DNA of 24,102 nt from a virus, in the IMG/VR virus record IMGVR_UViG_3300022723_000136, positions 1 through 24,102 of that record; one strand, written 5' to 3'. A model generated the notes under the pieces. It did not search any database and was not told where the DNA came from. It was given only the letters and a program-made list of their open reading frames with translations. Positions 631 through 21,353 of the stretch are shown in pieces. Each line of letters starts with the position of its first letter. Positions within the stretch are counted from its first letter, which is position 1. The translations under genes and the position numbers were made by a program.

Positions 631-2910
631 TCACTGGAACGGCCCTTTCCATATCGCACCGATCTTTCGTAAATACTCCCATCGCTTAGTAGCGATAGAC
701 CGCAGCGTTCCACAGTCTTCATCCCATACATCCAGAACGATAGGCGGTTGCTTTCCGGGAAGCTTGCGCAAAATGCGCCCGACTGCCTGTCGCGGGTCCA
801 ATAGCGGGTGTGCGAGAATACAAGTATCCAAGGCCGGGATATTGGTGCCTTCAGCGGTGTACTTATACGTCGCTATTAGGATCATGCCTTCAGGACAAGC
901 TTTGGCCTTTTCCTTAAGGTCTTTAGTAATTGAGCCATTGTATTCGATCACTCTGCTTTCCGGCACGCCCATTGACCTGAGCGCCGATTTGATTTTTTGC
1001 CCATGCTTTACTTGCTCTACAAAGACGATGATGCGCCGCCCGGCTTTATGCGCCCGCCATGCCGCCCCGGCTATTCGGGCATTACGCACACTATCCTGCA
1101 TCATAGACCGCTTGGCATGGTTGGTGCGGGACGGATCGTACCGAACTACCTTGCCGCTGTTACTCTTGGGTTCTGTCCAAGAAGAGGGTATCAGGTAGTA
1201 CAGGGGCTTTTCAGCGTCGGAATGTCCGACTACATGACGCCAGCCCATATGGCTATGTATCAAATCCATTTTTCCATCACGCCGTTCTGGCGTGGCGCTC
1301 AGCCCTAATCGAAACATGGCCGGAAACTGAAGCATTACTTTGCCGAATTCTTGAGAGCCTATCCGGTGGCAATTGCCTGATACTGAAACAGTGCCGTTAT
1401 ACCGGGTAAACACATTTCCACTTTGAACTGTTACACAATGAACTAGCCCCGAGTAAGGAACCTTTTTCTTTCTTATTGAACTGGAATTAACCCATCCGGT
1501 AGAGGCTGACCACCTGACTCTAAATCTGCCGGGTTTAGGGTGCGTTATACTAGCTTGGTGCCCAGTAACATGAGCCGCTAACCTGACCAGTTCCGCACAG
1601 GGCTTACTATCGGTTTCCCAAAAATTGGAAGCAGGGGTCACCCACCCATCCCATTTGGTTAACTCTTCCAGAAATTCCAAAGTTTTACGACCTGAAAGGA
1701 AAGGATCAAACCACTGTAGAGTCTTAGTAAAACACGGCATACTATTAAAAGTAAAGCTGGTATCCCCTTGGGCGTTTACACTCTCTTTATATTCAATGTT
1801 TGCAGCCCCTAACAGAAGACGCACCCGTTCTATCTTACGCACCCTCCTGAACATAAAGCGATGATACCCACTGTTAGGGCAGAGCAAACACCCATCGGCC
1901 TCATGGGCTATTCTTAACTTATCCATGGGGGATAACCCATCTTCGCCGGATAGCATCCCAGATACAGGCACTTTAACTTTGCTTTGGGGTGCCAAGCTCC
2001 CTAATTTTACACGGTCTAAACTGTAGTCCCCGTTCTTCCGTTTGCGTTTAATCGGCTGTTCGTGTCCCGGCGTAGTAAGTCCCTTGTAAGTTGGCCCCTC
2101 AAGAGAAACCATATCCCCTGAAAAATGCTTAGTTACAATCCGCTGTGCCTCTTGAAACAAAGCCTCCCCTGTCTCGGCATTAAAAGACAGAACAGCGTCC
2201 CCTTTACATACCTCAGAAACAGGAGTCCAACCCCTGCCCCTTACATACAGGTCATGACTAGGATGAAAACATTCATCTACAATCAGACAAGCAAAGCGGT
2301 TGTAGATACTCGCCGGATAGTAGCCTTGCCGATACACGGATTGCAGCATTGCGATTACAACCCACGCCTCGGGGTCCGGCAAATGCCCGCCCTGCCAATA
2401 ATCAATCTTGTTTTCCGGGATCGTCGTATGCTTCAGGAGTTCGGGCTTCCAATCCAAGTCCCCCTTGGGAATGACTACGCAGATTGGTCGCCCGATTTGC
2501 GCAGCTAACCAGCACGCGGTTGTTGTCTTGCCGAAACCGGTGGGGGCTTCCCCGATGCACCCAAGTTCATTTTCAAGAGTATTGAAAACCCCGGATACAA
2601 AAGGAACCTGCTCTGGCCTCAAATCACCAGTAAACTCAGCTTCGAATTCAAAGGCCCCTGTAGCCCGGTAGTCCCGATCTGGCGCTGGTTCCGGGGCAAG
2701 GGTGCGCGGCACGCCCAGCCAATGCTCTACTGAGGGGTGCGGCGTAAGAAGCGGAACAATTTCACTTCTTGCTTCAAAGGTCATGTCAGTAAGGGCTGCA
2801 CCATGTTCGTGGATATCATACCACGCAAGGCTATCTACGCGCTCGGGTTGGCCTAGCATGCGGGGAAAGCCGGGGGGCGGCAACCCGCCCCCCTTCAGAA
2901 TAGACGGCAT
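631..2910 (-). CDS. SF2 DECH-box DNA helicase interrupted by an intein
   Basis: The 759-residue precursor would splice to a helicase of about 459 residues. Visible helicase motifs are the P-loop APTGFGKTT (residues 122-130), motif II split as DE (212-213) and CH (514-515), motif III GLSATPERRDG, and motif VI QAVGRILR near the C-terminus. These define a superfamily 2 DNA/RNA helicase related broadly to the UvsW/T5 D10-type phage recombination helicases. Residues 214-513 are an intein. I chose the ATG at 2908-2910: it has AGGGG upstream and starts 13 nt after the stop of the SSB-like gene, whereas the longer frame to 3075 would overlap that gene by 152 nt. The helicase cannot be active before splicing because motif II is broken. 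A role in recombination-dependent replication or repair is inferred from family and neighbours. Confidence 0.88.
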   Translation of the reverse strand: MPSILKGGGLPPPGFPRMLGQPERVDSLAWYDIHEHGAALTDMTFEARSEIVPLLTPHPSVEHWLGVPRTLAPEPAPDRDYRATGAFEFEAEFTGDLRPEQVPFVSGVFNTLENELGCIGEAPTGFGKTTTACWLAAQIGRPICVVIPKGDLDWKPELLKHTTIPENKIDYWQGGHLPDPEAWVVIAMLQSVYRQGYYPASIYNRFACLIVDECFHPSHDLYVRGRGWTPVSEVCKGDAVLSFNAETGEALFQEAQRIVTKHFSGDMVSLEGPTYKGLTTPGHEQPIKRKRKNGDYSLDRVKLGSLAPQSKVKVPVSGMLSGEDGLSPMDKLRIAHEADGCLLCPNSGYHRFMFRRVRKIERVRLLLGAANIEYKESVNAQGDTSFTFNSMPCFTKTLQWFDPFLSGRKTLEFLEELTKWDGWVTPASNFWETDSKPCAELVRLAAHVTGHQASITHPKPGRFRVRWSASTGWVNSSSIRKKKVPYSGLVHCVTVQSGNVFTRYNGTVSVSGNCHRIGSQEFGKVMLQFPAMFRLGLSATPERRDGKMDLIHSHMGWRHVVGHSDAEKPLYYLIPSSWTEPKSNSGKVVRYDPSRTNHAKRSMMQDSVRNARIAGAAWRAHKAGRRIIVFVEQVKHGQKIKSALRSMGVPESRVIEYNGSITKDLKEKAKACPEGMILIATYKYTAEGTNIPALDTCILAHPLLDPRQAVGRILRKLPGKQPPIVLDVWDEDCGTLRSIATKRWEYLRKIGAIWKGPFQ
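1372..2271 (-). mobile_element. Intein (300 aa) with degenerate LAGLIDADG endonuclease domain
   Basis: In-frame insertion between VDE and CHRIG of the helicase. It starts with Cys (CFHPSHDLYVRGRGW, block A), has a block B TxxH motif (TPGH at intein residues 67-70) and ends with block F/G VHCVTVQSGNVFTRYNG then VSVSGN, with Cys as the +1 extein residue. The penultimate residue is Gly rather than the usual His; GN endings are known in other inteins, especially from phages. Between the splicing blocks lie two LAGLIDADG-like stretches: DKLRIAHEADG (117-127) and FLEELTKWDG (200-209), both keeping an Asp-Gly. This suggests a DOD-type homing endonuclease, intact or decaying. Local base composition is more AT-rich than the helicase flanks. 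Confidence 0.92.
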
Positions 2911-2923
2911 AGCTTGCCCCTGT

Positions 2924-3949
2924 TCAGATAAGCGCCCACGGATAGGGGCTGAAAGGCACTTCATCGTCAATTTGCCCCGTAGGGTCAGCGCCGAAACCAG
3001 AGGGCGGGGCCGATGCCATGGGGGAATACGCCGTAAAGCCCGCCATTGACGCGATATCCGGGCGTAGTTGTGCAATCTCGGCGTTGGTCAGAACCGGGTA
3101 AGCCTTGGCATAGTCGTAAACCTTTGTCGGCGCGGGCTTGTATTCCTTCTTGGCCTCGTCATACACGGTGTCCAACAGGGGATACTTCTGCAACACACTC
3201 TGCATAGGCACGTCTTGGATATACTCAATATCGTTCCCGGTGCGCGGGTCTTGCTTGGTTTCCCGGCTGAATTGATAGATCGAACCGGCCAGCGTGTTGT
3301 TACGGAGCTTGGCCCGGTCCATAAGCTTTTTCCGAACCTTCATAGTCGCCGGGAACAACTGCAAGCGCGCGGGCAGAACCTGCCCTTTGCGTGGCCCATT
3401 CTGGATGGTGTAGGGCATGATATTGATCACGGTAAAAAGCTGGAAAGTCTGGGGCTGCGATTTGTCAGCATTGGAGTTGCATACGATGCACTGCCCCTCA
3501 GTGTGGTTGTTGCAAACGAACTTGGCCCATTGGCCCCCGATCTGCATAAAGTGAAGACTTACCATAGGCGTGTCGAAAACGCCATCTTCTTGAACCGTTC
3601 CGTCCAAGAAATAGAGCTTGGCATACTCGCCGGGGTCCAACCAGAATTCCCGCGCATTGCTGCGGAGTTTGGCCCGCATGTCCTGATATGCGGTTACTTG
3701 CTGGACTTGGTTTTTCTGCTGTGCGCCCGACATGAGAAAAGAGGCCCCGGTCTGGTGGCCCGGTGCGGCCATAGGGCTGCCCTGTGGGGGCGAAGGCTGA
3801 TCAGTAGGGGGGTTGGGGGGCTGGTCGGCTGAAGAGCCTTCCTGTGGCGGCTGTGCGGCGCTATCAGCGCCGCCGGTTCCACCGAGCTTGTCGAGATTTG
3901 TCTGGTCGTCCTGTTTGGGGGCAGCCTTGCCCTTGATATTTATAGCCAT
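2924..3949 (-). CDS. Putative ssDNA-binding protein with zinc-binding motif
   Basis: The protein has 341 residues. Residues 1-75 are a Pro/Gln/Ser-rich flexible leader beginning MAINIKGK. Residues about 95-280 form a folded core with REFWLDPGEYAKLYFLDG and a C-x2-H-x4-C-x2-C cluster (Cys146, His149, Cys154, Cys157) likely to bind zinc. This arrangement resembles the zinc-containing OB-fold ssDNA-binding proteins of phages (gp32-like). The C-terminal tail is acidic then hydrophobic (IDDEVPFSPYPW), similar to the DDEIPF tips used by SSBs to recruit replication partners. It sits between primase and helicase and has its own promoter (4014-4042) behind a terminator, consistent with a need for high-level expression. 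The start ATG has AAAGGA upstream. The SSB assignment is by resemblance and is not certain. Confidence 0.6.
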   Translation of the reverse strand: MAINIKGKAAPKQDDQTNLDKLGGTGGADSAAQPPQEGSSADQPPNPPTDQPSPPQGSPMAAPGHQTGASFLMSGAQQKNQVQQVTAYQDMRAKLRSNAREFWLDPGEYAKLYFLDGTVQEDGVFDTPMVSLHFMQIGGQWAKFVCNNHTEGQCIVCNSNADKSQPQTFQLFTVINIMPYTIQNGPRKGQVLPARLQLFPATMKVRKKLMDRAKLRNNTLAGSIYQFSRETKQDPRTGNDIEYIQDVPMQSVLQKYPLLDTVYDEAKKEYKPAPTKVYDYAKAYPVLTNAEIAQLRPDIASMAGFTAYSPMASAPPSGFGADPTGQIDDEVPFSPYPWALI

Positions 3950-4060: not shown

Positions 4061-4085
4061 TAAAACAAAAGCCTAGCTAGGCTTT
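4061..4085 (-). terminator. Rho-independent terminator at the end of the primase gene
   Basis: Positions 4068-4085 are a perfect 18-bp palindrome, AAAGCCTAGCTAGGCTTT, followed in the minus-strand transcript by TGTTTTA (4061-4067). The hairpin begins inside the last codons of the primase, and its TAG stop (4077-4079) lies in the loop region. Because the stem is symmetric it could also act on plus-strand transcripts, where it is followed by CAGCC and not a T run. Confidence 0.72.
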
Positions 4086-5063
4086 CAGCCATGGGCTTTG
4101 GGTTTTCAAAGTATCCAGTTGCATCTTGATTTCATCCGGGCTGCTATCCCCCGGATCATCGCGGCCCGGTGGCGGGGGCAAGTGCCACACACGCGCACCT
4201 GAAGGCGCTAATTCATTCAAACGACTTTTCGCCAATTGCCCGCCTTTACCAACATCAAACATGGAAACCCACCGAGTTACGCTGGTGTGCCAGCCCAAGC
4301 CGGGGTGCCGAAAGGCGATGGACAAAGAGGCTACTACATTCTTGTAAACGGGCCAGACCTTGATCGCGTCAAATATACCCTCAACCACAAGCACTGGCTT
4401 ACTTAGATCAAGGGCGTGTTCCCCGTGCCAAGTAAATCCGCGAGGGGCGTTCCCCTTGTAAGGATAGTAGAAATAACGCGGCCCTTCGGGGTTTGGGATA
4501 AGGGTACGCCCGACACACCCGCGAAACCTTTGAGCCCGATCATAAAGTGGGAACACGACGCGATACCGCATTGGATCAAATCGAATATCAAAATGATCAG
4601 CTACAGCCGCCGATACGCCCCGGTTATTAAGGTATTCCATCGCCGGGGCATGCTGTTTGGTAACTCGGGGGAAACTTCCCAGCCATTCAGGGTCAGGGAA
4701 CGGATCATCCAGAGTATGGGCGCTCAGGCTCAAAGGTAGATTGCCTGTCTTTACGGTTTCCATGAGGTCCGTTACGACTTTAAGATCGGTTGCGGTAATA
4801 TCCTCATAGCTATAAAGCGTGGCGGCTATATCCCGTACATCACCGGAATACCCACAAGAAAAACAGTGCGCGTGCCCTTCCATCTTATGGGCCTCACCGC
4901 TGTTGTAAACCACGCCGAATGACGGGTTGTTGTCTACTCCTTTTTCATGCCGGTATTTGGCAAGGGGGCAGGATGCATGCACCCAGCCCCGCTTGGTAGC
5001 GCCTACTGTGGACCCAAGCTGTTCCAGAATGGCCGCAATAACCTCTTCATTACTCGCAGCCAT
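4077..5063 (-). CDS. DNA primase (zinc finger plus TOPRIM)
   Basis: The product has 328 residues. The N-terminal zinc-binding site is Cys32, His39, Cys67 and Cys70 (CPLAKYRHEKG then HCFSCGYSGD), as in CHC2-type primases. The core has FPLYDRAQRFRGCVGRT, typical of the RNA polymerase domain of phage and DnaG primases, followed by the TOPRIM glutamate motif VLVVEGIFDAIK (Glu228). The second TOPRIM motif reads MFDVGKGG, where DnaG-type enzymes normally have D-x-D; the first Asp (270) is present but the second is Gly. It would make RNA primers for the DnaB-like helicase encoded nearby. The protein has no helicase domain, unlike T7 gp4. It ends in a terminator. The start ATG at 5063 has only a weak GGA upstream. 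Confidence 0.85.
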   Translation of the reverse strand: MAASNEEVIAAILEQLGSTVGATKRGWVHASCPLAKYRHEKGVDNNPSFGVVYNSGEAHKMEGHAHCFSCGYSGDVRDIAATLYSYEDITATDLKVVTDLMETVKTGNLPLSLSAHTLDDPFPDPEWLGSFPRVTKQHAPAMEYLNNRGVSAAVADHFDIRFDPMRYRVVFPLYDRAQRFRGCVGRTLIPNPEGPRYFYYPYKGNAPRGFTWHGEHALDLSKPVLVVEGIFDAIKVWPVYKNVVASLSIAFRHPGLGWHTSVTRWVSMFDVGKGGQLAKSRLNELAPSGARVWHLPPPPGRDDPGDSSPDEIKMQLDTLKTQSPWLKA

Positions 5064-5650: not shown

Positions 5651-6940
5651 CTATAGGAATGTCAGATCGTTTTCAGTTTCAGTCGAACTTATTTCATCAA
5701 AATTCATCTTGTTGAAATCAAAGTGGATATCAAACCCGCCGACCTCCCCGTTACGCCCCTTCATAAGGGTTATGCGCTTCTTGGACATCTGGTTCAAATT
5801 CTTCGGGTTTTCCAATAACCCCATGATCACTGTCATGTACTCGGGGATAGCATGGCTATACCCGATATCGTCCAGATCGGGCGTACCCCCCGCGTCATCC
5901 TTGCCGGACCCTCGTTTGAACTGCCAGCTTGAAAACGTCATGGTGCCCGTGCGCTGTTGCCACTGCTTCATGAGATCAAGGTTTTCAGGCACGCGCTGAT
6001 AGCGGCCCAATCGCGTATCGGGGTGTCGCAACATGTAGGCCCCGTCAATCCAGACTGATTTCACGCCATGCAAAGCCGCGATAGCCTCTATGTCGCTTAC
6101 TGTGCCCGCCATCTTGCTGTCGTAAATCAGGAAAGGTATATCCTGCTGTTTCAAATAGGCTTCAGCACTTTTCAATGCGGCCATGTACTCTTCTGGTGTG
6201 GGGCCGGGCACTTGGTATTGCATGAGTTTACCCGAGTATAACGGGCCGGGATTGACCTCAGCCAACATAGGTATCGCCCGCTTTTCCATCTGTGCCGCAC
6301 TCATTTCTTGAGTAACGAACATGACGGGCTGATTATATTCGGTCCAATGTGAAAGCGCCGTGTAGAGCATAAGCCATGTTTTGCCGGAACCGGGCCGTCC
6401 GATAAGCCCGAACATATCACCGGCTTCAATAGACCCTTGCGCATCAATGGTCGGATACCCGATGCCCAATCCCTTATCTACTTTCCCATCCAATTGGGCC
6501 TGATAGTGATCCAATGCCGTGGTATGCCGGAGGTCGGTCACTTGTGCCGCTGTATGGCCCTGAGTGATGGGCAGGAGTGCGGAAATCATCTGTTGCAGGG
6601 CGTCCCCCGCCTTGCCCTCTTGAAGCAAACCAGAGGCACTATCTGAAGCCGCGCGCATCGCGTCTTCTATGAACCGGTTCTTGAGTTGGCTGACCTCGAA
6701 TTCATAGGGCTCAGTGAGCGGGGGGAGAAATATGCTCTTTTGATCAAGCAAAGTGTCGGGATGGGGCAGTTGCCCGAATTCAGCCAAATGGTTTCGAATG
6801 AACCCGAATGCCTTCTGGTCTTCATCATAGGTAAGGTAGGGCTGAACCCGTGAGAGTTCAGCCCCGGCTTGCTTTGGTGGTAAGTCCAGTATTCCTCGAA
6901 GAACCCGAAGGCCCGCCGTGCTGGCGTTCATAGACGACAT
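5651..6940 (-). CDS. DnaB-like replicative DNA helicase
   Basis: The product has 429 residues. An N-terminal helical domain (about 1-135) is followed by a RecA-like ATPase: Walker A GRPGSGKT (181-188), the catalytic Glu in VTQEMS (Glu212, equivalent to the LEM position of DnaB), and Walker B SVWIDG (Asp299). A later QFKRGSGKDD loop resembles the DnaB hexamer arginine-finger/DNA-binding region. It would unwind the fork 5'-3' as a hexamer, loaded by the initiator and loader-like proteins encoded immediately upstream. The ATG at 6940 has AGAGGGG upstream. The N-terminal part is shorter than in bacterial DnaB, as in many phage helicases. Confidence 0.85.
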   Translation of the reverse strand: MSSMNASTAGLRVLRGILDLPPKQAGAELSRVQPYLTYDEDQKAFGFIRNHLAEFGQLPHPDTLLDQKSIFLPPLTEPYEFEVSQLKNRFIEDAMRAASDSASGLLQEGKAGDALQQMISALLPITQGHTAAQVTDLRHTTALDHYQAQLDGKVDKGLGIGYPTIDAQGSIEAGDMFGLIGRPGSGKTWLMLYTALSHWTEYNQPVMFVTQEMSAAQMEKRAIPMLAEVNPGPLYSGKLMQYQVPGPTPEEYMAALKSAEAYLKQQDIPFLIYDSKMAGTVSDIEAIAALHGVKSVWIDGAYMLRHPDTRLGRYQRVPENLDLMKQWQQRTGTMTFSSWQFKRGSGKDDAGGTPDLDDIGYSHAIPEYMTVIMGLLENPKNLNQMSKKRITLMKGRNGEVGGFDIHFDFNKMNFDEISSTETENDLTFL

Positions 6941-6960: not shown

Positions 6961-7554
6961 TTAGCCGGGTGCCTGTACCCCGTTGAGAACGGAGAAGTGT
7001 TTGGTGTATGCCGGGGCTTCAGCCCCGAAAATGTCATTCAGGCCCGCTTTGTTCGGAACCCCGATAACCGTCTGCCGCCCACGCGCCATACGCCCCATAA
7101 GCCACGAGCCGATTGCCCGCCGCGTAGACGCGGGCGCATCCGCATAGGACAGATCGGGAATGGCCACCAGATCAGCATCCGGTTGGCGGCGTTTGTCAAA
7201 CAGTTCCGATACAAGCTCTTCCCGGACAATCAGCCGCGCCGGGATGAAGTTGCGGATAAGCGCCCCACAGACAGACCGTTCCCTGAGTGTAACGCTTGGA
7301 TCATGCGCCCCGATGTAAATCAGGCCCAGCTTCCCGGTCTTGCCAGTTCGGCGGAATCCAGTGAGATACTCCCGTTCAAAATCGGTCAGGTGGTAAAGCT
7401 CGCCGGTAACATCGGCCACGGTAATTCCGGCTTCAGCGGCAATGCGTTCCAGTTCTTGGACAAGCGGATCATGGAAACCGGGAACGAGCTTCCCGTGCTT
7501 GAAGGCGCTATGCGCGGCCCCGGTTGGGGCGAGGGCGTGAGCGTGGGCGGTCAT
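6961..7554 (-). CDS. DnaC-like helicase-loader homologue with degenerate P-loop
   Basis: The product has 197 residues. I infer a AAA+ helicase-loader ancestry from pattern and position. GKLGLIYIGAHDPSVTLRE (75-93) sits where DnaC/DnaI proteins have GLLLxGPPGTGKT, ADLVAIPDL (127-135) looks like Walker B, and GRQTVIGVPNK (159-169) resembles the sensor-1 strand ending in TSN. The P-loop lacks the GKT, so ATP binding in the normal way is unlikely. It lies between the winged-helix initiator and the DnaB-like helicase, where lambda P or DnaC-type loaders are usually found. The ATG at 7552-7554 has AGGA 6 nt upstream and follows the initiator stop by 9 nt. A generic unknown protein is the alternative. 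Confidence 0.55.
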   Translation of the reverse strand: MTAHAHALAPTGAAHSAFKHGKLVPGFHDPLVQELERIAAEAGITVADVTGELYHLTDFEREYLTGFRRTGKTGKLGLIYIGAHDPSVTLRERSVCGALIRNFIPARLIVREELVSELFDKRRQPDADLVAIPDLSYADAPASTRRAIGSWLMGRMARGRQTVIGVPNKAGLNDIFGAEAPAYTKHFSVLNGVQAPG

Positions 7555-7563
7555 GGCCGGTCC

Positions 7564-8562
7564 TCATTCCTTCTTGTCCTTTATCCATTTCGAACCGGGC
7601 TTCCACGGTTCGGGTTTATAGCTTTCTTGAGGCCCTTTATCGCCTTTGTTGAGGCTCATGTCTACAGCCTCTTGTACGATTGGATTGGCCATTGCGGCTT
7701 TTTGGTCGTCAGTGAACTCAAGTTCATTGAACTCATCGCTCGGAAGTAAAGCCCCCGGTTCGATTACAAGCTCGTATGTGCGGTTGATAGCCCATGGGTG
7801 CGGCGGCGCTTTCCCAAGCGTCTTGGGGCGGATATCTACCCAGCGCCCAATCCGGTATTCCAGCTTTTCAAGAAAAGCCGCCGTGCCTTTGCAGTCAAAT
7901 AGCCGAACTGTCTTTTTGATGTGGGCCAGAGTCTTGCCATCAATCTCAAAGGATTTGTACCCGTAGTCCCGCAAGAGCCGGTTCCATTCATACGCCAGAG
8001 TCTTGGGGGCCGGGGGCCTCGCGCGCGCGCGCGCGTATGAGACCTCTTGTTTCTGTTTCAGGCGATCAGATACCCCTGATAACTTCTTATTCAAAATCAT
8101 TTCGGTCACCCCGAAAGCGTTAGCCCGTTCAGGGGTAACGCCAATACTATCTCCTTTACTTTCTTTATCCCCTTTAACTCCTATAATGTTGCTTTCATGT
8201 TGCCTCGATGTTGATTTCATGTTGCCTGACGTTTCTTTGGGCCGGGCCAGAACCCATATTTTGAGCCGCCCGGACCGGCCAATTCGAACCCGTTCAACCC
8301 GCAAAAAACCATGCTGAGTGAGCCATTGAACATGCTTGGTAATAGTCGCCCGATTGACCTGATAATCAGCGGCCCATTGCATGAGCTTGGGGACGACATA
8401 GGGTCGGCCCCGATCATCCTTGTAAGTTGTTGTATCCATCCATGATAGCAGGCGGGCATATACCAAGGCGCGGGTAAACACCCCGCCGACAAGATCGGTA
8501 AGCTCGGATGCCCGAAACCGATAGGGATGATGGTCTGAAAGCTGTATGACATTGGCTGGCAC
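7564..8562 (-). CDS. Winged-helix replication initiator (lambda O-like role)
   Basis: The 332-residue product starts at GTG (8560-8562), which has a perfect GGAGGA Shine-Dalgarno 7 nt upstream; a TTG at 8577 in the same frame would leave that site inside the gene. Residues about 10-105 form a winged-helix DNA-binding domain (QWAADYQVNRATITKHVQWL recognition region, then LRVERVRIGRSGRLKIWVL). A low-complexity linker follows (about 110-190), encoded by the origin-like DNA at 8020-8229, then a helical C-terminal domain with a KPEPWKPGSKW tail. DNA-binding N-terminus, origin inside the linker, and partner-binding C-terminus repeat the plan of lambda O. The loader-like and helicase genes follow directly. 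It would bind the iterons and recruit the helicase; this is inference. Confidence 0.75.
   Translation of the reverse strand: MPANVIQLSDHHPYRFRASELTDLVGGVFTRALVYARLLSWMDTTTYKDDRGRPYVVPKLMQWAADYQVNRATITKHVQWLTQHGFLRVERVRIGRSGRLKIWVLARPKETSGNMKSTSRQHESNIIGVKGDKESKGDSIGVTPERANAFGVTEMILNKKLSGVSDRLKQKQEVSYARARARPPAPKTLAYEWNRLLRDYGYKSFEIDGKTLAHIKKTVRLFDCKGTAAFLEKLEYRIGRWVDIRPKTLGKAPPHPWAINRTYELVIEPGALLPSDEFNELEFTDDQKAAMANPIVQEAVDMSLNKGDKGPQESYKPEPWKPGSKWIKDKKE
8020..8035. repeat. (CG)8 alternating purine-pyrimidine run
   Basis: Sixteen bases of uninterrupted CG dinucleotides inside the initiator gene, encoding an Ala-Arg repeat (ARARAR). Such runs can adopt Z-DNA under negative supercoiling. It lies at the far edge of the origin-like region, about 150 bp from the iterons. 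Confidence 0.9.
8071..8137. repeat. Dyad and hairpin in the origin-like region
   Basis: TACCCCTGA (8071-8079) and its exact reverse complement TCAGGGGTA (8129-8137) flank a 49-bp interval. Inside it TTTCGG (8100-8105) and CCGAAA (8111-8116) form a 6-bp stem with a 5-base loop. Confidence 0.6.
8141..8229. other. Putative replication origin: iterons plus AT-rich, G-free tract
   Basis: Positions 8186-8229 contain four 11-bp units each starting ATGTTG (at 8186, 8197, 8208 and 8219). Next to them, 8141-8187 has no G on the plus strand and about one third GC (16 of 50 over 8141-8190 by hand count). Iterons next to a strand-asymmetric AT-rich tract, inside the linker-coding part of an initiator gene, is the organisation of lambda ori. 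This is inference from organisation only. Confidence 0.62.
8186..8229. repeat. Four 11-bp ATGTTG iterons
   Basis: The units are ATGTTGCTTTC, ATGTTGCCTCG, ATGTTGATTTC and ATGTTGCCTGA, with no gaps. Units 2 and 4 share the longer repeat TTTCATGTTGCCT at 22-bp distance (8193-8205 and 8215-8227). The 11-bp period is about one helical turn, placing all copies on one DNA face. It is not a multiple of three, so the encoded protein (GNMKSTSRQHESN) is not itself a repeat. Confidence 0.85.
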
Positions 8563-8646
8563 TTTAGAGTCCTCCAAAAGAAAGCGCGCCCGCCGTGAGG
8601 GGCAAGCGCGCTGCTATACGGTGGTGGTCACCGCCCCTCGAAAGGT
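8563..8646 (-). promoter_or_regulatory. Structured leader of the initiator gene
   Basis: This 84-bp gap contains nested inverted repeats: GAGGGGC (8597-8603) with GCCCCTC (8633-8639), and inside it CGGTG (8619-8623) with CACCG (8629-8633), two alternative pairings that share G8633. AAGCGCGC is directly repeated at 8582-8589 and 8604-8611. No T run follows, so it is not a standard terminator. I see no convincing -35/-10 pair. It could be an mRNA structure controlling initiator translation or a binding site. Confidence 0.45.
8570..8575 (-). promoter_or_regulatory. Ribosome binding site fixing the initiator GTG start
   Basis: The minus strand reads GGAGGA, 7 nt before GTG (8560-8562). It decides the start against the TTG at 8575-8577 in the same frame. 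Confidence 0.8.
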
Positions 8647-16503: not shown

Positions 16504-17210
16504 ATCGTTTCCAAATCCCCGAACAGATAGTACGTATCAGCAGTGCCCAGATCAGGCAAGAGAGTAACCGCCGCGCCAACCCCGGTCGTGCGAGTAGCCC
16601 CGGCCTTGGCGATGATAGATACGCCCGATTGCTCGTCAAATGTCCATTTCCCGTTATTGATCTGGATAAAGGTAACGGGTTCTGTTCCGGTCAAACCGGA
16701 AGGTACAAAGATCGTTGCGGCAGACGCGCTATTCAAGAAAACCACGTTGTTTCCATCAAGATCAGCATCGGTCAGATCACGGGAAGTTGTCGTCGTGGAT
16801 TGGGATTGGCCGGGGGCGGAGCTGCTACCCCCTGACCCACCGCCGGACACTGTATATACATCAGCCCCGTCCGTATGCATAAGTGCCAGTGTGCCAATGC
16901 CGATCACAGCCGCGTCAGTACCCGCGTCCAGCACTTCGATAGTCGCCGCTGCATCGGTCGTGTTGAGAACGGCCCAACGCCGGGCGATATTCGGCACGCG
17001 CACAACAAAACCCGAGCCCGGCGTTCCGGTCAATTCCAAAAGCCCGTATTCCAAGAATTCGGTGTTTGTCAGGGTAACATCGCCCGTAATCGCTTTGGAC
17101 AGTACCCGGTTCTGGGCGTTGTCAAGGATATCGAAGGCGTCGTTTATCGTGACTTCCTTGTTGCTCTGTCCGACCGTTACGTGCGTGATATTCAGTTGAC
17201 CAGTTGCCAT
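16500..17210 (-). CDS. Putative tail fibre / structural protein
   Basis: The product has 236 residues, beginning MATGQLNITHVTVGQSNKEV, a beginning commonly seen in tail-fibre proteins of alphaproteobacterial phages. Two beta-rich halves are separated by a Gly/Ser linker (SGGGSGGSSSAPGQSQSTTT, about 123-142). The second half has FVPSGLTGTEPVTFIQINNG and an AGATRTTGVGAAVTL stretch typical of repeated beta-prism units. The ATG overlaps the preceding stop (TAATG, 17208-17212). No enzymatic motif is seen. Likely part of the tip or fibre with the LamG protein. Confidence 0.6.
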   Translation of the reverse strand: MATGQLNITHVTVGQSNKEVTINDAFDILDNAQNRVLSKAITGDVTLTNTEFLEYGLLELTGTPGSGFVVRVPNIARRWAVLNTTDAAATIEVLDAGTDAAVIGIGTLALMHTDGADVYTVSGGGSGGSSSAPGQSQSTTTTSRDLTDADLDGNNVVFLNSASAATIFVPSGLTGTEPVTFIQINNGKWTFDEQSGVSIIAKAGATRTTGVGAAVTLLPDLGTADTYYLFGDLETI

Positions 17211-20200
17211 TAGCTTTCCTCTACGTAGAGTGCCCGAACTTTCGACATACCGCGCCCGACTTGCGATGATAGCTGGAACACGCGAACATAAATCGGGTCC
17301 AGCCCTGCTATTACTCGCGCCGCGTCGAAACCATCCGCCGACATTTGCGCCTCAGTATACTCTACCGCTTCGCTGGTTGCATCAAGAGTTCGGCGAATTC
17401 GATAGGCGACCCCATCCTCACTATAGGCTTCCGTATCTTCAGACAGGGGGACTTCCCCGCTTGGGGCGCTATTCAAAAGCCGCCCGCCAACCCGAGTACG
17501 GCGCACCCACTGTATTTCGTATTCGCTGCTTTCAGGTACTAGCTTGATATGAGTGGGCTCATAGGGTTGCAAGGCCCGCAATTGCAGCGTTTGGGTTCGA
17601 TCCTTCGCTACAAAACCCGGTGAGTGCGCGGGCAGGATTTGATAGCGGGCGGATGCCCCGTCAGAATTCAATCCCTCAAACCACCCGGTTGTCCAACCGG
17701 GATCAAGGAAAATCAGGTAAGTCAGGCCCGCCCCATTGCCGGTTGTGCCCGGCGCATCGTAGCCAGTAGCAAAGGTATCCGTCCCCCGCTTGCCGCGAAT
17801 GAACCCGCTAAGGCGGTAGTCTCCGTTGCTTAGAAGCTCTACATCTCGAAACCCGATAATCTCCACTTCACCAGAACCGCTCTTCAAAAGAGCGGCTGTA
17901 TTGAAATCGAACTGCACCATGTCCGTTTCCGAAACACTGGCAAGCTGGTCCGCCCCTACCAGCATCCCGATATCCACTGAGGCTTCCTGTATGCCATTCC
18001 AGAAATCGCCGGGGATGTCCGGCATGGCCTCGCGTAGAACGCCCCACGGGGCTTCGCGTGGGATCACTGTCTTGGTCGTAAACCCGCCACCCTCTATGGA
18101 AAGCCGCAGTGCAGTTCCGGGATACACGCGCGTGCTGCCCACGGGCGAACGCGCGCCCGCGCAATAGATCAGGGCAGAGTTGCGGCCTTCCATGTCTCCA
18201 TCCCGCAAGAGCGGCATGTCAAGAAGCCAACCAGTAACGGCTTTGGTGTACGAGGCCGTAAGCCCGCCAACCGTATAGTTCGGTGATCCCGGCGGCTGAA
18301 CGCCCTGTATCCGCTGCGTATAGATTTCAGTGTCAGCAACGGGGCCTTCTATCTCTACTTCGAGATTGGCCCCAACGCTTACGCGGTTGGCCCGAATGCC
18401 CTCTACGCGCCCCTCAGCAGTTACTTGCACGATATCATTCGGCAAAAGAGAGACATAGCGCGGGGGCAGGCGCAACCGAAAAATCTCGGCGATGCGTGCC
18501 CCTTCATCCGCAGTAAGATACAGGGGGAGTTCAATATGCTGTTCCCCGACTGAATTCATGGTCGTAGCCGGTGTGCTTATGCGCCGCGCGCCCTGCACCA
18601 TCTTGTTGTCGTCTTCTACCGGATCAAGGTGTTTGACAAACAAGGCACGCGGCGTTTCCAATTCCTGACCACGGGACTCTTCGAACAGATTGGCATTCTG
18701 CGGTCGCACCAAGTCCTCTTCAGGAATTACCATATCAAGCTGGTTATCGTGGAATCGGAAAACCAATTGCCCATTCTCTTCGCGGCCATAGAAGTTAAAG
18801 GCCGTCATGAGCGGTTCTAAAGCCGCGCGATAGGACAGGCTACGGGAAATCCCGTAGCCTTGCACCGATTGGGTTGCTAGGTCCGTGGTATCTATGTCGC
18901 TGAGTGAAAGCTTGCTGCGCTGCACAATGTCTTTCACGATAACGTCAAGGTTTTCCGGCGCGCGTTCCCCCTCTACAAAGAGATAGAATATGCCACGATT
19001 GGGGTCGATCTGCCGACCATCTTCTACAAAGAATTTACCGTTTACAGCCCCGCCGGACCAAATTACGCCATCGCCGCGCGGATAATCAGTCGGGGCAGAA
19101 TTGTACTCATCCAGAAGTTCCCCACTGGCCGTGTCATACGTATTGAACTCGCGCATGGATATGTCGCGATAGATGTAGCCTTCAGAAAAATCGAACCAGC
19201 GCGTCGTATAATACGGGGCAGGCATGGGATCATCGGAGTTCCACAGGGTTTGCGGGCTGAATTGAAAGGCCCCCTCAGTGATGCCAAACCCGCCCTTGGG
19301 GGCTACTGCCTTGTTAAGTCGATAGGCGATTGTATCGGGGCCGTCAGTGCCGGGGATGGACCACACAAGGATATCTTGCGCTTCATCATACCAGATGTGT
19401 TGCCGCCCGGTCCCCGCAGTATTGGACCGGCGGGTAATAAGGATTTCAGGGTCATCGGGACTGCCGCTTCCAAGTCCGGCAATCGTATTTGCCGGAAGGT
19501 TCCGAACACGATAGGCAATCAGATGATAAGGCCCGTTTGTGGTATTCAGGTTGCTATCTTCCTCTATGCCGATAGCAAAGAAATACCGGGCTTCGGTGGT
19601 CTGTGGCCCTTGGCATAGGGACGCGCCGCCTGCGAATCCGACAATATCGGGCGGATCGTTTGTACCGTCATCCAACTCTTGACCGGCGTCATTGGACCCC
19701 CACTGGTATTTGAAACCCAGATCGGTCAGTTCTACAACCGACATGACTGCGGTATCTTGAAGGGGCGAAAAGGTATTAGTGCCCAGAAACACCCCGAAGT
19801 ATTTCTTGGGATTGGCAACTGAACCTTCGACCCCTTGAAAAGAGAGCGGCCCCCCGCTTTCGATAATCTCGATATTGCGATTGCCGTTCAGGTAAATCTT
19901 TTCGGGTTCAAAATCCAAACAGATAGGGTCGCGCTCCCCCTGCTTCATAGCGGCCCCTACATCAGACTTCGGGCCGGATGCACACACCTTGAAAGTCGGG
20001 CTTCGAAAAGACCGCTGTATCAGCGTAAGGCTTTCTTTCTCAATCAGGGCATAGTTTTCATTATCGCTGGGTGCAGAGGTGCCTACTAGCAGATAGGGGC
20101 AATCCCGGCCCGCCCGGATAAGCCGGGTAGGGCTCCCTGTAAAGATGGGGCTGATATCGGAAAAGGCCCGCTTGGCGACCACCTCCCCGGTAAAGGCTTC

Positions 20201-20929
20201 ATTCACAATCAGGGAAGAGACGCCATCGTCGTCCTCACCCGAGGTATACAGCATCTCGTTTACCGGGTCGTAATCGGCCCATGTATCAGAGTCCCCATCC
20301 CGGATATCGTCCAGATAATAGCTGAATTTGTCGGCCACCACTTGATCAAAGGCCACCAAAAACCGGAGCGTGGGGATGCGGTTGCCGAAGTTTTCCAAGG
20401 GCAGGCGATTGAAAACGACATAGGCAATCCCCCGATAGGCCGGGCACTCCTCGGTGCCGACATCGGCCTCTATGATCGGATCACGGGGTTGGTCTGCCGT
20501 GCCCTCGTACACTGTGAAATCAAGGTCTTCCATTATGTCAGGCAACTCAGTGCCTTCATCCAGTTGATCATAGATGATCTTGCCGTCAGCATAGATGCGC
20601 AGTATGCGTGCGATTTGGCGGCGGCACAGGCCAACTGCAAAAGTCCCGAAATACCGATAGGTGATGTTCTCCCCAAGGCTGAAAGGGTCGCCTTTGGAAA
20701 TGTCAGATGTGGTAACTACCTCTTCAATATCTTGCCCCCAGATAATGTTACCGGACAAAATGGTGGTGCCGTACCCCAAACTGATTTCCTCCCCGTAAGT
20801 AGAGGTGGTCAGCGTGGTATCGTCCAGCCGGGGGCCTTCATTTACTTGCTTTGGAGTAAGCGCCGATATGGCCAGCCGAATTGCGGCTTGCAGGGCTATG
20901 TTGATAAGGATGCCACCGGGATCAGCCAT
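17210..20929 (-). CDS. Giant tail-tip protein (GTA gp15 'megatron' / lambda J-like)
   Basis: The product has 1239 residues from the ATG at 20927-20929, which overlaps the peptidase stop; an in-frame TTG at 20932 is less likely. The N-terminus has a hydrophobic helix (ILINIALQAAIRLAISAL, about 6-23) and then YGEEISLGYGTTILSGNIIWG, characteristic of central tail-tip proteins. The C-terminal third (WTGWFEGLNSDGASARYQIL; ALQPYEPTHIKLV) has the fibronectin-like and receptor-facing layout of GTA gp15 and lambda J. It forms the host-contacting tip beneath the hub. Its size and place after DUF2460, DUF2163 and NlpC/P60 genes match the GTA cluster order. A block of about residues 190-580 with Asp/Gly-rich loops may be a beta-propeller insertion; I cannot confirm it. 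Confidence 0.8.
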   Translation of the reverse strand: MADPGGILINIALQAAIRLAISALTPKQVNEGPRLDDTTLTTSTYGEEISLGYGTTILSGNIIWGQDIEEVVTTSDISKGDPFSLGENITYRYFGTFAVGLCRRQIARILRIYADGKIIYDQLDEGTELPDIMEDLDFTVYEGTADQPRDPIIEADVGTEECPAYRGIAYVVFNRLPLENFGNRIPTLRFLVAFDQVVADKFSYYLDDIRDGDSDTWADYDPVNEMLYTSGEDDDGVSSLIVNEAFTGEVVAKRAFSDISPIFTGSPTRLIRAGRDCPYLLVGTSAPSDNENYALIEKESLTLIQRSFRSPTFKVCASGPKSDVGAAMKQGERDPICLDFEPEKIYLNGNRNIEIIESGGPLSFQGVEGSVANPKKYFGVFLGTNTFSPLQDTAVMSVVELTDLGFKYQWGSNDAGQELDDGTNDPPDIVGFAGGASLCQGPQTTEARYFFAIGIEEDSNLNTTNGPYHLIAYRVRNLPANTIAGLGSGSPDDPEILITRRSNTAGTGRQHIWYDEAQDILVWSIPGTDGPDTIAYRLNKAVAPKGGFGITEGAFQFSPQTLWNSDDPMPAPYYTTRWFDFSEGYIYRDISMREFNTYDTASGELLDEYNSAPTDYPRGDGVIWSGGAVNGKFFVEDGRQIDPNRGIFYLFVEGERAPENLDVIVKDIVQRSKLSLSDIDTTDLATQSVQGYGISRSLSYRAALEPLMTAFNFYGREENGQLVFRFHDNQLDMVIPEEDLVRPQNANLFEESRGQELETPRALFVKHLDPVEDDNKMVQGARRISTPATTMNSVGEQHIELPLYLTADEGARIAEIFRLRLPPRYVSLLPNDIVQVTAEGRVEGIRANRVSVGANLEVEIEGPVADTEIYTQRIQGVQPPGSPNYTVGGLTASYTKAVTGWLLDMPLLRDGDMEGRNSALIYCAGARSPVGSTRVYPGTALRLSIEGGGFTTKTVIPREAPWGVLREAMPDIPGDFWNGIQEASVDIGMLVGADQLASVSETDMVQFDFNTAALLKSGSGEVEIIGFRDVELLSNGDYRLSGFIRGKRGTDTFATGYDAPGTTGNGAGLTYLIFLDPGWTTGWFEGLNSDGASARYQILPAHSPGFVAKDRTQTLQLRALQPYEPTHIKLVPESSEYEIQWVRRTRVGGRLLNSAPSGEVPLSEDTEAYSEDGVAYRIRRTLDATSEAVEYTEAQMSADGFDAARVIAGLDPIYVRVFQLSSQVGRGMSKVRALYVEES

Positions 20930-21353
20930 CAATCACCCCCGGAAAATCCCAAGCGCACAAAAGCTTTCGGGTCTTTTTACCATGATGCAGCATGTCCACC
21001 ACAACCCGCTTCTTGCTGGCAAGGGCGTGCACGATGCTGCCCCGATCTGGATCAAGCACGATACCGGCATGATACGGTGAGCCTTGAAAGGAATAGACCA
21101 CCGCAGTTCCGGGCTTAAGTGAACGCAAGTTCACTACAGGCTGCATGTATTTCTGGAAGTACCGCAGCATAGTTCCATCGGGTTGCGCGCGATACGGGGG
21201 TATCTTGGGCTGGGGGCTGAGCCCGAGGTCACACCAGACCGATATGAGCAACCCCACGCAATCGACCCCGGTGTGATCACGCCCCATATGCCGCCATGGC
21301 ACTCCGACATGATTTCGGGCCAAATCAACAATATGCGTGCGGGTCAGGTTCAT
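20922..21353 (-). CDS. NlpC/P60 peptidoglycan endopeptidase of the tail tip
   Basis: The product has 143 residues. The NlpC/P60 triad is visible: Cys32 in VDCVGLL, His95 in SPYHAGIV and His109 in IVHAL. It is equivalent to gp14 of the Rhodobacter GTA and to lambda K and would open the cell wall locally during DNA entry. The ATG overlaps the DUF2163 stop (ATGA, 21350-21353) and the gene overlaps the start of the tip protein. The length is typical for stand-alone tail members. Confidence 0.88.
   Translation of the reverse strand: MNLTRTHIVDLARNHVGVPWRHMGRDHTGVDCVGLLISVWCDLGLSPQPKIPPYRAQPDGTMLRYFQKYMQPVVNLRSLKPGTAVVYSFQGSPYHAGIVLDPDRGSIVHALASKKRVVVDMLHHGKKTRKLLCAWDFPGVIDG

Follow-up and report, generated by a model that had tools for sequence, protein, structure and literature searches.

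The window analysed here is the full 24,102-nucleotide record IMGVR_UViG_3300022723_000136 (positions 1-24,102), which is probably a piece of a larger genome, complete relatives measuring 87-102 kb. A replication operon runs along its minus strand. The initiator gene (7564-8577, minus; 337 amino acids when read from TTG at 8577) matches a PHROG replication initiation profile with an E value of 6e-4. The annotated TTG sits within a Shine-Dalgarno-like stretch, TTGGAGGA (8555-8577), and the GGAGG found there suggests that GTG at 8562 is likelier to be the true start. The earlier note on this DNA had placed loader-like and DnaB-like genes downstream of the initiator. Both have been found, as a predicted helicase loader of 197 amino acids (6961-7554, minus) and a DnaB-like replicative helicase (5651-6940, minus; PF03796, E 8e-16; phrog_19, E 8e-42). 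A DNA primase follows (4077-5063, minus; phrog_47, E 3e-37), and the order initiator, loader, DnaB, primase is kept across relatives. The product of 2924-3949 (minus) matches phrog_17226, a family of unknown function; its position, and the analogy with gene 57 of phage RcZahn, annotated as T4 gp32-like, make it a probable gp32-like single-stranded DNA-binding protein. In the neighbouring UvsW-like helicase (631-3075, minus) the DECH motif is apparently split by an intein-like insert of about 280 residues, which begins with CFHPSHD and finishes with VSGN ahead of CHRIG; no family model matched the insert. Farther away, 17210-20932 (minus) encodes a baseplate protein of the gene-transfer-agent type (NCBIfam GTA_megatron, E 1e-105, under the cut-off score of the model), which hints at an alphaproteobacterial host.

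The initiator is predicted by AlphaFold2 to consist of two confident domains, a winged-helix DNA-binding domain (residues 23-109; 8251-8511, minus; pLDDT about 88-95) and a helical C-terminal domain (residues 169-249; 7831-8073, minus). The linker between them is predicted to be disordered, with low confidence at about residues 117-163 (pLDDT 42-58). Foldseek matches of the winged-helix domain include the N-terminal domains of plasmid Rep proteins (4pt7, 5kbj and 4pql, E about 0.01). No Pfam family was found for the initiator, and weak NCBIfam matches (sigma factor, PhnF) fell below cut-off and were dropped. Compared with lambda O by hhalign, the protein gave probabilities of 1.7% and 0.45%, hence no significant homology; for some relatives, matches to PHROGs called 'replication initiation O-like' were obtained. 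Against a profile of the relatives' initiators the window protein scored a probability of 97.7 and an E value of 1.8e-12 (a single comparison), with 221 columns aligned. The best Foldseek match of the 197-amino acid protein is DnaC in the E. coli DnaBC complex (6qel_G, E 1.8e-5, TM 0.62), and its fold is of the DnaC-like AAA+ type. No conserved GxxxxGK[ST] P-loop was seen at the expected strand in an alignment of 41 sequences of the loader family; the GxxxxGKT string of the window protein lies upstream of that strand, and is not common to the family. Judged from these sequences, the loader may have lost ATP binding.

Inside the initiator gene lies an array of short repeats (8186-8238, minus), read as ATGTTG on the plus strand and CAACAT on the coding strand. 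Units start at 8186, 8197, 8208 and 8219, exactly 11 bp apart as originally described, and the array is extended by a fifth, degraded unit (AAACGT, at 8230). The exact pattern of four ATGTTG at 11 bp occurs once in the window, and in none of 100 dinucleotide shuffles. The notion of short iterons one helical turn apart holds for the spacing and has to be amended for the unit. Tandem Repeats Finder reports 11 bp x 3.6, but gives a better score to 22 bp x 2.5 over 8186-8238, and units alternate along the coding strand as GGCAACATGAA, ATCAACATCGA, GGCAACATGAA and AGCAACAT; the repeat is therefore better described as a 22-bp unit containing two halves of 11 bp. No dyad symmetry is seen in the units (p = 0.88). 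The array covers codons 114-131 (gene nucleotides 340-392), thus falling, as had been proposed, in the part of the gene which encodes the linker. Near-perfect copies of the repeats tried are confined to the initiator gene, both in the window and in three relatives.

Read along the gene, which lies on the minus strand, the order is winged-helix domain, iterons, A-rich tract, hairpins. The tract, a predicted DNA unwinding element (8142-8185, minus), is 68% AT and lacks C on the coding strand (G on the plus strand); its AT content is exceeded in just 40 of 24,058 windows of the same size. The surrounding 47-nucleotide G-free run (8141-8187), singled out in the earlier note for its lack of G and low GC content, is longer than any other in the window, the runner-up being 36. 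Directly behind the tract is a hairpin with a 9-bp stem and one mismatch (8117-8141, minus; GCGTTA.CCC/GGG.TAACGC), followed by a second one (8100-8116, minus; TTTCGG/CCGAAA). The dyad and hairpin listed in the earlier note are real, the tandem folding as single-stranded DNA at -12 kcal/mol (z = -3.9). The (CG)8 run at 8020-8035, also counted at first as a piece of the origin, does exist, but it corresponds to Ala-Arg codons outside the conserved part and probably does not belong to the origin. A CG-rich stretch coding for ARAH is present in the closest relative, L011, and no such run in another relative, L013; the run is not general, and its reading as a Z-DNA element was dropped.

Relatives of the initiator itself were found neither by tblastn in phage records nor by peptide scans of viral contigs, and queries consisting of the window helicase or loader sequence by itself yielded almost nothing. 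The neighbouring 197-amino acid and DnaB-like proteins have relatives in phage records by tblastn, and initiator relatives were reached via these. Seven phages of the same order were read (DLP3, DLP5 and Summit, of the genus Delepquintavirus, RcZahn, RHph_TM16, RHph_Y1_11 and KarBoss), and further loci (79 + 18) were obtained from viral contigs by profiles. Most of the seven carry repeats at the same position of the gene, mostly as units of 22-23 bp, and in several of the phages these show dyad symmetry. The stretches of their records that were examined carry no origin annotation, and the DLP3 paper mentions no origin; a search of the open-access literature found no report of intragenic origins in these phages. 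Array sequences differ from phage to phage, and spacing is kept by most relatives. Units such as CCCCTCACTCCAGTGAGGGG and GGTGCAGATATGCACC exemplify the dyad-symmetric type, dyads being significant at p <= 0.05 in 21 of 35 arrays. L011, whose helicase is 67% identical to that of the window, is the closest relative, a search for closer ones having found none; it has three copies of AACGTCAAACG (AACGTC) spaced by 11 bp at the position of the window array, the linker peptide having diverged. In L013, GCAAC units are about 22 bp apart.

The DNA behind the array is also similarly built. In the 35 arrays profiled, window included, some 50 bp are A-rich and C-poor on the coding strand (A 0.33-0.44, C 0.15-0.23), with an AT content of 0.53-0.65 versus about 0.45. 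Words of the TACAGAGA type and GACTAC are enriched there, and are repeated every 12-13 bp in many phages. A hairpin starts +33 to +59 bp past the array in 25 of the 35 cases, though by simple shuffles hairpins are significant (p < 0.1) in just 54% of cases. The 12-13-bp A-rich repeat, often of the ACAGAGACTACA type, was observed in the predicted unwinding element of L006, L008, L018, L022, L040, L057, L062, L097 and L118. As it is similar across several phages with differing iterons, a shared factor may read it. Of five loci found later in bacterial genome assemblies, four have 12-mer repeats or an array. Assemblies from Acetobacteraceae, Burkholderiaceae, Roseococcus and Reyranella (L117-L121) carry the same replication module, and the contigs on which two of these loci reside, about 96 kb long, may be phage-plasmids. 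Phage DLP5 was obtained as a phagemid (PMC7326821).

The interval 8100-8238 is very probably an intragenic replication origin, bound by the initiator encoded by the same gene. Since the window is a 24-kb fragment, another origin may be present elsewhere in the genome. The most serious competing view, improbable in our opinion, holds that the repeats are an operator through which the initiator, or another phage regulator, controls the replication operon, replication starting elsewhere. Initiator binding sites often serve autoregulation, and these sites do sit in the operon. Cumulative GC skew, recommended in the earlier note as a check on the origin, does not mark the array and lends no support to an origin there. 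The window being a fragment, skew was computed for four complete relatives (DLP5 and KarBoss, and RcZahn and TM16 without their final ~1 kb), and its extrema fall at least 19 kb from the array; nearly all genes of these four phages lie on one strand, which makes skew a poor guide in them. Against an operator stands the location of the repeats deep within the gene, away from the promoter. Moreover, in most relatives, as in lambda ori, the array comes together with an A-rich tract and a hairpin, neither of which an operator would need.

Less plausible still is the view that the array is a low-complexity linker, expanding and contracting by tandem duplication, and devoid of any function as DNA. 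The linker is predicted to be disordered, and disordered linkers tolerate repeats, but periods of 11, 22 and 23 place successive copies in different reading frames. The issue was addressed by shuffling codons among synonyms within the gene, which keeps both the protein and the codon usage. The self-similarity of the window array was reached by none of 5000 such shuffles, and the array is therefore a DNA feature, as the earlier note had argued from the change of frame. By the identical measure lambda ori scores 13.5 versus 17.5 for the window array, and 1 of 200 shuffles reaches lambda's score. Significant tandem arrays (p 0.01 in the same test) are found in 40 of 64 non-identical initiator genes from the same replication operon, compared with 3 among 200 other genes from these loci (Fisher p = 5.6e-27); the remaining 24 initiators are above p 0.01, and several of them show just a 12-mer or one or two visible units. 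At p <= 0.02 the best period is 23 in 12 initiators, 24 in 7 and 22 in 6. Periods of 22-24 bp thus prevail whether multiples of three or not; as the frame is preserved by 24 but shifted by 22 and 23, the helix and not the codon seems to set the spacing. That most relatives retain this spacing under different repeat sequences equally disfavours a coding origin. Synonymous change in the array region is, if anything, lower than elsewhere. Between Summit and DLP3, array and tract show 3 synonymous changes at 41 sites versus 39 at 220 in the rest of the gene, and 9 amino-acid changes in 52 codons versus 19 in 253. The comparison of synonymous sites that had been called for, carried out on DLP3, DLP5 and Summit, gives fewer synonymous and more amino-acid changes in the array region, on small numbers. 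A conserved protein over freely varying DNA, the pattern named in the earlier note as adverse to an origin, was sought in the relatives and not found: the linker protein diverges, the repeat layout stays.

It is equally unlikely that the array is a partition site, parS or centromere-like, for the ParB-domain proteins that these phages encode, some being phage-plasmids as the phagemid DLP5 indicates, since the array, where present, follows the DNA-binding domain of the initiator and not parB genes, and varies in sequence from phage to phage, whereas ParB sites are usually conserved in sequence.

The interpretation as an intragenic origin gains from comparison with known systems. The logic of lambda O and its ori, invoked in the earlier note, is recognizable in the order and distances of the elements, and the layout recurs in dozens of large phages that are only distantly related. 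In both systems repeats lie behind the part of the gene encoding the DNA-binding domain (nucleotides 349-433 of lambda O, 340-392 in the window), and are followed by about 43-45 nucleotides of purine-rich, AT-rich DNA, and then by a hairpin. In lambda the iterons, inverted repeats of 18 bp at intervals of 20-24 bp, are occupied by O dimers (PMC5043065), whereas window units are direct, 11 bp apart and lack a dyad. The window phage also encodes its own DnaB-like helicase and primase, in contrast to lambda, whose P loader takes over the host helicase, and its initiator lacks detectable homology to O. In SPP1, initiator gp38, loader gp39 and the DnaB-family helicase gp40 (PMC6316719) are encoded in the same order as in the window, with an origin, oriL, inside gene 38. 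SPP1 differs in using the host primase and in having a second origin, oriR, and the window in having a loader of DnaC-like fold. By layout, the probable origin in the window is thus of the lambda/SPP1 kind, in a variant form. Membership in the lambda O family is not supported, as the features compared, sequence homology, site symmetry and loader strategy, were not found to be shared.

Plasmid iterons usually reside outside the rep gene. In plasmids such as P1, F and RK2 they are, as in the window, direct, helix-phased repeats adjoining an AT-rich region; they are bound by monomers, and helical phase is kept (PMC5043065). The 13-mers in the unwinding element of RK2 recall the 12-13-mers in relatives of the window, and the P1 origin contains in addition DnaA boxes (PMC5043065). 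The likeness extends to the protein, as the winged-helix domain of the window initiator resembles Rep N-terminal domains. Being direct and helix-phased, window units are built like plasmid iterons inside a gene arrangement of the lambda type and, by analogy, would be bound by monomers.

According to the model favoured here, an intragenic origin served by its own initiator, the winged-helix domain would bind the phased iterons, and bend or wrap them, and the initiator would melt the adjacent A-rich tract. The C-terminal domain would then recruit the DnaC-like loader and the phage DnaB-like helicase, with the phage primase and SSB acting next. Once the strand is opened, the sequence behind the tract would fold into its hairpin, which may restrict melting or set the place of loading. 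Two aspects are new, the breadth of this layout among large phages for which no origin is mentioned in the records and papers, as far as these were examined, and the direct iterons spaced by one turn in the window and L011. More tentatively, and in our view somewhat less likely than not, the branch including the window and L011 may have replaced dimer-bound sites with dyad symmetry, spaced by two turns, by direct half-sites one turn apart, occupied by head-to-tail initiator monomers as in iteron plasmids, with a DnaC-fold loader which lost its ATP-binding loop, the layout at large representing a broad unannotated class of origins in phages of about 100 kb.

To our knowledge, the origins of most large uncultivated phages are not known. 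A rule based on sequence only, which looks immediately after the winged-helix domain for repeats spaced by about 11n bp, an A-rich tract and a hairpin, yields dozens of candidate origins and initiator-iteron pairs, the site being particular to each phage. Pairs of this kind would help explain how winged-helix proteins of the family select their sites, and replicons for use in alphaproteobacteria and other hosts could be derived from them. The intragenic arrangement of lambdoid phages and SPP1 would thereby be extended to large phages endowed with their own helicase and primase.
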